From a virus, in IMG/VR virus record IMGVR_UViG_3300017528_000090, positions 1 to 40,371 of that record: a stretch of 40,371 nt of DNA; one strand, 5' to 3'. The position numbers and the translations under genes are program-made. Under the pieces are notes generated by a model. It had not been told where the DNA came from. It did not search any database and saw only the letters and a list, made by a program, of their open reading frames with translations. Shown piece by piece: positions 26,937 through 27,792 of the stretch (position 1 is the first letter of the stretch; every line of letters begins with the position of its first letter).

Positions 26937-27221
26937 ATGAAAAAACTACAACCGTTAGTCGTAACCACGATCCATAAAGGAGTATTCTTTGGCTATGGAA
27001 CCCCAGAGAAGGATCAAACCACAATCCGACTTGAGCAGGCCCAAATGTGCGTGCACTGGTCATCCGATGTGCATGGAGTAATGGGGCTTGCTTCCAGCGG
27101 TCCGACAAAAGGCTGCCGAATCGGGCCTGCCGTGAAAGCCATAACCCTGCAAGGAATCACTGCCGTGATGGAAGCCAGCGAAGCCGCTGAAAAAGCATGG
27201 AAGGATTCGCCGTGGAATTGA
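26937..27221 (+). CDS. DUF6948-like protein
   Basis: 94 residues. The opening VVTTIHKGVFFGYG, the middle LEQAQMCVHWSSDVHGVMGL, and the block GPTKGCRIGPAVKAITLQG followed by ITAVMEASEAAEKAW match what I know as DUF6948, a small phage protein family of unknown function. Family name is from memory and not searched. The stop lies 25 bases inside the following Gly-X repeat gene, so both are probably translated together. Confidence 0.75.
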   Translation: MKKLQPLVVTTIHKGVFFGYGTPEKDQTTIRLEQAQMCVHWSSDVHGVMGLASSGPTKGCRIGPAVKAITLQGITAVMEASEAAEKAWKDSPWN

Positions 27222-27490
27222 GCTGCTCTGGCTATGGCTATGGCTATGGCTATGGCGATGGCTATGGCGATGGCTATGGCGATGGCTATGGCTATGGCTC
27301 TGGCGATGGCTATGGCGATGGCTATGGCTATGGCGAAGGCTATGGCTATGGCTATGGCTATGGCTATGGCGATGGCTCTAGCTCTGGCTCTGGCTCTGGC
27401 TCTGGCTCTGGCTATGGCGATGGCTCTGCTCTGGCTATGGCGATGGCTCTGGCTCTGGCTCTGGCTATGGCTCTGGCTATGGCTATTTAG
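27197..27490 (+). CDS. N-terminal part of a Gly-X hexamer-repeat protein (frame-broken)
   Basis: ATG 27197 gives MEGFAVELSC and then over thirty Gly-X dipeptides where X is Tyr, Asp, Ser or once Glu, encoded by GGCTAT, GGCGAT, GGCTCT and GGCGAA. At 27426-27430 one unit has five bases instead of six. The reading then turns into Ala-Leu/Ala-Met and stops at 27490. If that unit had six bases the frame would continue through the last repeats into the conserved C-terminal region ending at 27792. So this is the N-terminal fragment of a protein of about 198 residues, either truly split, phase-variable, or an assembly error. Confidence 0.6.
   Translation: MEGFAVELSCSGYGYGYGYGDGYGDGYGDGYGYGSGDGYGDGYGYGEGYGYGYGYGYGDGSSSGSGSGSGSGYGDGSALAMAMALALALAMALAMAI
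27230..27486 (+). repeat. Degenerate GGCNNN hexanucleotide array, 43 units
   Basis: 257 bases made of 42 hexamers and one pentamer. The first three bases are GGC in nearly every unit (one AGC), while the last three vary among TAT, GAT, TCT and GAA. Y/D units dominate the first two thirds, S units the last third. No spacers exist, so it is not a CRISPR. Three plus-strand frames are free of stops through most of it, giving Gly-X, Ala-Met/Leu and Trp-Leu/Arg products. Confidence 0.95.
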
Positions 27491-27792
27491 AGGCTATCTG
27501 CGAACCATTTAAACGGGATGGATGGGTGATTGCCTTGTGGCGGTCCTCGCTACAAGGAACACCGTCGAACGGAGGGGTATCAGCCCCGGTAAAGATAGGA
27601 GATGTGCAAACCGTAGAAGGACCGTTGCGCCTATGCGGTTCCGGTGCCCTCCACGCAACCATGAAACCTGACAAATGGAAAGGTGAACGCTGGTGGATTG
27701 TTGCACTTAAGGAGCCGGTGATTAAGGAGGAAGATAAAATGGGTTCGCTTGAACGTGAGATTCTAGCCGACCTGGGCAAATGTCCGTTTTGA
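27481..27792 (+). pseudogene. C-terminal part of the Gly-X repeat protein in a shifted frame
   Basis: Continuing the Gly-Tyr reading after the five-base unit gives GYLEAICEPFKRDGWVIALW, then GGVSAPVKIGDVQTVEGPLR and DKWKGERWWIVALKEPV, ending EREILADLGKCPF. This has a clear native composition and resembles the C-terminal domain found after Gly-rich repeats in other phage proteins (I believe DUF7666, unverified). It has no good start of its own. GTG 27526 is the first possible one. It is best read as the second half of the gene starting at 27197. Confidence 0.6.

Follow-up and report, generated by a model that had tools for sequence, protein, structure and literature searches.

The window analysed here is a virus record of 40,371 bases (IMG/VR IMGVR_UViG_3300017528_000090), and it contains a single strong hexanucleotide array at 27230-27486 on the plus strand. 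Counted unit by unit, the array has 43 units; Tandem Repeats Finder places it at 27225-27486 with a period of 6, 43.8 copies and a score of 342, far above the other five rows that the program gives for the window (scores of just 51-65). Each unit encodes glycine followed by a variable residue, X. The preliminary description of 43 Gly-X units therefore stands, but only 41 begin with GGC, while one, in phase at 27380-27385, begins with AGC and one is five bases long. The X codons are TAT (21), TCT (13), GAT (8) and GAA (1). The loss of a base from one unit had also been seen correctly, but the short unit lies at 27428-27432, two bases to the right of the approximate position 27426-27430 given for it. 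The frame of 27197 reads Gly-X up to this unit, for about 33 units, after which the altered frame appends an Ala/Met/Leu tail to the upstream chain and stops at 27488-27490. As had been described, the Gly-X reading moves to another frame past the short unit, that of 27430, and continues without a stop into a C-terminal domain (27484-27792, plus strand, stop codon 27790-27792).

The key to the locus is the overlapping upstream gene at 26937-27221 on the plus strand, which the preliminary description had passed over. It encodes a 94-residue protein with a predicted Sm/LSm-like fold, and belongs to DUF6948 (Pfam PF22253) with 66.7 bits against a curated cut-off of 27. The array gene had been taken to start at 27197. 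That frame is correct, but the true start is probably GTG 27212, which opens a short leader (27212-27229, plus strand) overlapping the DUF6948 stop. This is indicated by the start positions in relatives, since in 34 of the 38 family loci listed, the window included, a start codon in frame precedes the DUF6948 stop by 7 or 10 bases. ATG 27197 and TTG 27218 are alternative starts in the same frame, and TTG 27218 fits too. The array gene lies on the strand and in the region of DNA-metabolism genes, including an Mgm101-type single-strand annealing protein (24660-25913, plus strand; Pfam PF06420, E 2e-14) and, further on, a helicase and a methyltransferase; the head and tail genes are on the opposite strand. 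The window also has tandem 11-base units at 28810-28851, which overlap the end of one ORF and the start of the next.

DUF6948 and the Gly-X array almost certainly form a real two-gene module that is widespread in phages, as judged from sequence comparisons made in both directions. A profile started from the window DUF6948 was used to look on the same strand within 400 bp upstream of other arrays. It found the gene at all 38 arrays of the C-terminal-domain family that have more than 450 bp of upstream DNA, and at 48 of the 62 that came from a DNA pattern alone. Of the remaining 14, seven are extra copies in loci where DUF6948 stands at another place (L084, L094 five times, L144), inspection by eye shows a similar upstream ORF for three (L090, L092, L100), and four are arrays with no visible DUF6948 upstream (L067, L096, L104, L138). 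PF22253 itself scored over its cut-off in 41/48 family records and 39/49 chosen DNA-pattern records. For the reverse direction, virus contigs were searched twice for DUF6948, with 366 and at least 571 relatives reported, and among the best 80 of each a Gly-X run lay within 250 bp downstream of DUF6948 in 149 of 160 loci. In the other 11 loci the contig ends first (six) or there is no array (five: L222, L223, L253, L308, L326). The two gene starts are also closely coupled, with an in-frame start between -45 and +60 of the DUF6948 stop in 89 of 90 arrays.

The pairing extends to named records, where 18 DUF6948 matches led to 16 fetched regions, all 16 with a downstream Gly-X run, one of them irregular (L186). 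These include Iodobacter phage PhiPLPE, Pectobacterium phages, Vibrio phage IKEMa6-1 and Chlorobiaceae phage CV-1-33, as well as a Monoglobus plasmid and a Neisseria gonorrhoeae record. A search of named phages with the window DUF6948 sequence gave no match. DUF6948 is rare in cell genomes, being found in 0 of 288 and in 1 of 398, where the one is the genome chosen as the centre. In the N. gonorrhoeae record (NZ_CP119142.1, locus L193), the Gly-X array behind DUF6948 is mixed in its silent codons and has AGC codons for serine, and the DUF6948 search reports three places in that record. The virus contig IMGVR_UViG_3300048818_000025 (L033, L053) carries two complete modules, each with DUF6948, an array and a C-terminal domain of the same type as that of the window (the WKGERWW family).

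DUF6948 is likely to have an Sm/LSm-like fold, according to its predicted structure (pLDDT 94.4, pTM 0.87). Among the 50 Foldseek matches listed, 47 are Sm/LSm or snRNP/spliceosome entries, the best with an E of 3.6e-3, and the other three are one NatC entry and two designed TIP60 entries. All 50 of the matches listed by VIA are Sm/LSm or snRNP/spliceosome entries, with Z scores from 7.1 to 6.0 and none at 8. When 78 DUF6948 members were compared to Pfam at an E of 1, 76 matched PF22253, which was the only family to recur, and no Sm family was found; a profile search of the PDB with DUF6948 also returned no Sm protein. Since DUF6948 has no sequence match to an Sm family, it is termed here a protein with an Sm-like fold and not a member of the family. 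By analogy with the modelled fold, DUF6948 may form rings and bind RNA.

The preliminary description had suggested that slippage in the array could switch the protein on and off, as in a contingency locus. The window does have a frame-changing unit and unit number does differ among close relatives (L056 and L057, and Pectobacterium-type phages, below), but a unit of six bases means that gain or loss of units preserves the frame. Two frame scans were made, each requiring four regular units on both sides, a rule that breaks near array ends would escape; the first, on arrays of at least 60 bp in all loci collected to that point, found one of 129 arrays out of phase, and that one is the window, and the second, around DUF6948 genes and with some contigs in common with the first, found a frame-breaking unit in none of 156. 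Another case flagged in the first scan (L104) proved to be two arrays 38 bases apart with a start codon of its own between them. In all 127 arrays reached through DUF6948 a start codon leads into the Gly-X frame without an intervening stop, and the array lengths in eight cultured Pectobacterium-type phages are all multiples of six. Array and C-terminal domain share one open frame in 49 of 51 domain relatives; the other two start within the domain at a contig end. In these scans frame-shifting repeat changes are confined to the window, and on/off switching, against which this conservation of frame speaks, is very improbable as an account of the locus. Programmed frameshifting at the short unit is likewise rejected, since no relative has such a unit.

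The five-base unit very probably reflects faulty assembly or else a recent, isolated mutation. Contigs often break off at the array: of 160 loci, 38 have a contig end within 600 bp of DUF6948 on the side of the array, as against 5 on the opposite side, and this concentration is what makes an error or an isolated mutation likely. A less likely reading is that the short unit is a real and tolerated mutation, so that the phage makes a chain without the C-terminal domain, like the domain-less arrays of other phages. Such arrays are common, with 63 of 86 ORFs of the DNA-pattern set ending within 30 residues past the array, and the N-terminal part of the window gene would retain most of its units. 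On the other hand, the C-terminal domain of the window is free of stops and retains the invariant positions of an alignment of 48 sequences, the altered frame adds the Ala/Met/Leu tail, and the excess of contig ends on the array side shows that assemblies struggle at this place.

The composition of the arrays points to selection on the protein. The family set consists of 41 arrays of at least 15 units, found with a search pattern that fixes the first two Gly bases and holds the third X base to C or T, and under that pattern the Gly third base never varies within an array (41/41) and the X third base is invariant in 34 of 41. Mean heterozygosity in these arrays is 0.378 at the first X base and 0.418 at the second, as against 0.000 at the third Gly base and 0.016 at the third X base. 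Codon preference was considered as a cause of these uniform silent positions and is rejected for the family, since the flanking genes mix all four Gly codons (GGC 391, GGA 140, GGT 137, GGG 103) and each of the 41 arrays uses one. The uniformity is not general. In a second set of 127 distinct arrays reached through DUF6948 with no codon filter, the Gly third base is invariant in 97 arrays and varies in 30, and the X third base is invariant in 69 and varies in 58; the first two X bases vary in nearly all. The Neisseria and Monoglobus arrays have mixed silent codons.

The X alphabet is restricted. Serine (0.357), tyrosine (0.350) and aspartate (0.236) together account for 94% of X residues in the 127 arrays, and 115 of these arrays contain all three. 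Tyr and Asp are abundant in the chain, and Lys and Arg nearly absent. The same alphabet appears whether Gly is GGC, GGG or GGT and the X codon ends in C or T, amounting to five or more silent backgrounds. According to a survey of prokaryotic low-complexity regions, aromatic residues are under-represented in them (PMC6821194), which would make an X position with a third or more of tyrosine unusual. The order of X residues is close to random while the composition is kept. Since this composition recurs on different silent backgrounds without a kept order, selection probably acts on the composition of the chain; the earlier suggestion that the restricted X set is selected thus looks right at the protein level. 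Compared with shuffled arrays, neighbouring units have the same X residue slightly less often (z -4.3) and units two apart share one more often (z 5.5), which contradicts single-unit slippage as the main source of variation and implies that larger blocks or selection are involved. Asparagine occurs at X beside Tyr and Asp in two loci, one with no Ser in its two arrays (L144:4271-4963) and one with His as well (L084:5359-6027).

The number and order of units change rapidly. A comparison of unit number among homologues had been proposed, and variation was found at several levels. Loci L056 and L057 match base for base over 500 bp on either side, but their arrays are 138 and 144 bp long with one further X difference. 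In the pairs L052/L054 and L087/L132 one flank matches and many units differ, with a contig end truncating one member of each pair; L050 and L051 are identical. At L094:1720-2923 there are five domain-less array genes in tandem, with 27, 34, 31, 30 and 28 units and identical 76-bp spacers between them, and paralogues in L144 and L115 have matching flanks beside the array but different arrays. Array length in the eight cultured Pectobacterium-type phages ranges from 20 to 38 units. Among cultured phages, Ymer and Amona are identical over 4097 bases to the left and 1753 to the right (about 5.8 kb), but their arrays have 28 and 25 units in a different order. The cultured phages settle that array turnover is not confined to metagenomic contigs, and misassembly of repeats could account for some of the variation seen. 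There are stable arrays too: L289-L293 have one array in common over the length that each contig covers.

The array may alternatively be selected as DNA, as an attachment or recombination site. The array of Iodobacter phage PhiPLPE has been printed as (KMGCCG)35, a 210-bp DNA repeat at 46,046-46,255, with the speculation that it is an attachment site (PMC3391216). The longest identical run begins at the 3' edge of the array in 5 of 10 Pectobacterium phage pairs, which are not independent, and between Ymer and Pappous the upstream flank is 92.7% identical and 450 bp downstream are 100% identical, the change falling at the array. A differing array must, however, end an identical run, so a run boundary at this place is partly trivial. 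The silent positions also differ between arrays while the amino-acid alphabet is constant, and the reading frame and the coupling to DUF6948 are conserved. Selection on the array as a DNA site is therefore improbable, and selection on the encoded chain remains the preferred reading.

The C-terminal domain of the window belongs to the WKGERWW family, for which 51 relatives were collected. Searches of virus contigs gave 5 and then 48 loci, a genome collection gave three matches, and L097 came from the DNA-pattern search. One of the three genome-collection matches was false and was left out (L065, by eye an aldehyde-dehydrogenase-like ORF). The domain has a distant resemblance to DUF7666 (PF24703), which matches 6 of 48 C-terminal domains with a best E of 0.0014, and several DUF7666-named viral proteins are among its fold matches; the window's own domain, by contrast, has no match to DUF7666 at an E of 10. 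None of the 48 records is above the curated cut-off of DUF7666 (27 bits), in a search where the controls gave nothing either. Named phages searched with the domain of the window and with that of another family member gave no match, and PHROGs searched with the domain gave no family at a convincing E-value. Sequence searches of the PDB with the C-terminal domain and with DUF6948 returned weak matches only (E 0.58 and 0.99). A 98-residue ORF antisense to the domain (27483-27779, minus strand) is probably due to chance.

The predicted structure of this domain has a pLDDT of 93.1 and a pTM of 0.86. Its viral fold matches are DUF7666, RIIB, pentapeptide and ankyrin-type proteins, with E from about 1e-3 to 5e-2, and Foldseek against the PDB found nothing significant (best E 0.9). 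VIA lists 2aua in the top row (Z 6.6) and also lists the rifampin ADP-ribosyltransferase Arr (9iaf, 6.3; 2hw2, 5.3) and PARP16 (5.0). These low scores no more than suggest an ADP-ribosyltransferase-like fold. The WKGERWW-type domain is carried by the arrays of this clade; most arrays found by DNA pattern have no C-terminal domain, and at least two further kinds follow other arrays. A FAHG-type domain of about 150 residues occurs after the Gly-X arrays of L074, L098, L099, L103, L123, L136, L139, L191, L192 and L201, and the one tested had no convincing match in Pfam or NCBIfam. A short domain of about 62 residues, of GC.xRT type, follows the arrays of L078 and L142 and has no match in Pfam or NCBIfam.

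On balance we favour, as the best explanation of the whole, a two-gene module in which an Sm-like DUF6948 protein is paired with a low-complexity Gly-[Tyr/Ser/Asp] chain. DUF6948 would form an Sm-type ring or hub on nucleic acid. The chain, made from the overlapping next gene, may serve as a disordered tail of the Sm-like protein supplied in trans, and this part of the model is put forward tentatively. Such a tail would be multivalent through its tyrosines and acidic through its aspartates, and if the chain has this role its composition would be selected and its order free. The arrays would probably turn over when units anneal or recombine with one another out of register, a process for which the Mgm101-type annealing protein of the window is a candidate agent. 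A fuller version of the model is rather doubtful as it stands: it would make the pair a phage nucleoprotein or condensate system with an Sm-like ring and a multivalent chain in trans, whose order is reshuffled by recombination and whose composition is held, and would have the array serve also as a site of neighbour-gene exchange among related phages.

The pair might instead be a toxin-antitoxin or counter-defence system with the chain as the active or the neutralised partner, and two small overlapping genes that are widespread in phages, one of them varying rapidly, would suit such a role. The Pfam scans that were made, however, matched no named toxin, antitoxin or defence family, and known toxins do not resemble a Gly-rich chain of free order, so this role is quite improbable. 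If the model of an Sm-like protein with its chain is true, several hundred or more phages pair an Sm-like protein with a separate low-complexity chain. With order free and composition fixed, and with cultured phages that have identical flanks but different arrays, the composition of a disordered chain would be directly testable in a bacterial cell.

The gene pair is widespread and under-described, and its chain is fast-changing, frame-locked and, it seems, selected for composition. Two readings are corrected: the array encodes protein and is more than an attachment site, and its frame is locked, unlike that of a contingency switch. Like simple-sequence contingency loci, it is a short tandem repeat within a gene with a variable unit number, but here the unit length is a multiple of three and the frame is conserved. 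The array of phage PhiPLPE (locus L188) is of the same kind and lies behind DUF6948; where the published account deals with this array, it treats it as a DNA repeat and possible attachment site only, without reading it as protein-coding or linking it to a partner gene (PMC3391216). A search of open-licence papers found no description of the DUF6948/Gly-X gene pair, and none of DUF7666 or DUF6948. DUF6948 is known as a Pfam family (PF22253) that the window gene and 76 of 78 aligned partners match, and for which Pfam states no function. What is new here is the constant pairing of DUF6948 with a Gly-X array and the Sm-like model of DUF6948.

The acidic-tail model of E. coli Hfq is part of the background to the proposed chain. 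The nearest known plan is that of Acinetobacter Hfq, an Sm-type core joined to a Gly-rich repetitive low-complexity chain. In A. baumannii the C-terminal domain of Hfq is reported to be glycine-rich and repetitive, and in A. baylyi the Hfq C-terminus is reported to be dispensable for growth and cell phenotype (PMC5663733). Unlike DUF6948 and its partner, the tail of Acinetobacter Hfq is covalent, whereas here the chain comes from a second gene, has a Tyr/Ser/Asp alphabet and shows fast turnover of order; DUF6948 also differs in having no sequence match to Hfq. If the proposed model is true, the DUF6948/Gly-X pair would be a split version of the Hfq core-plus-tail plan.
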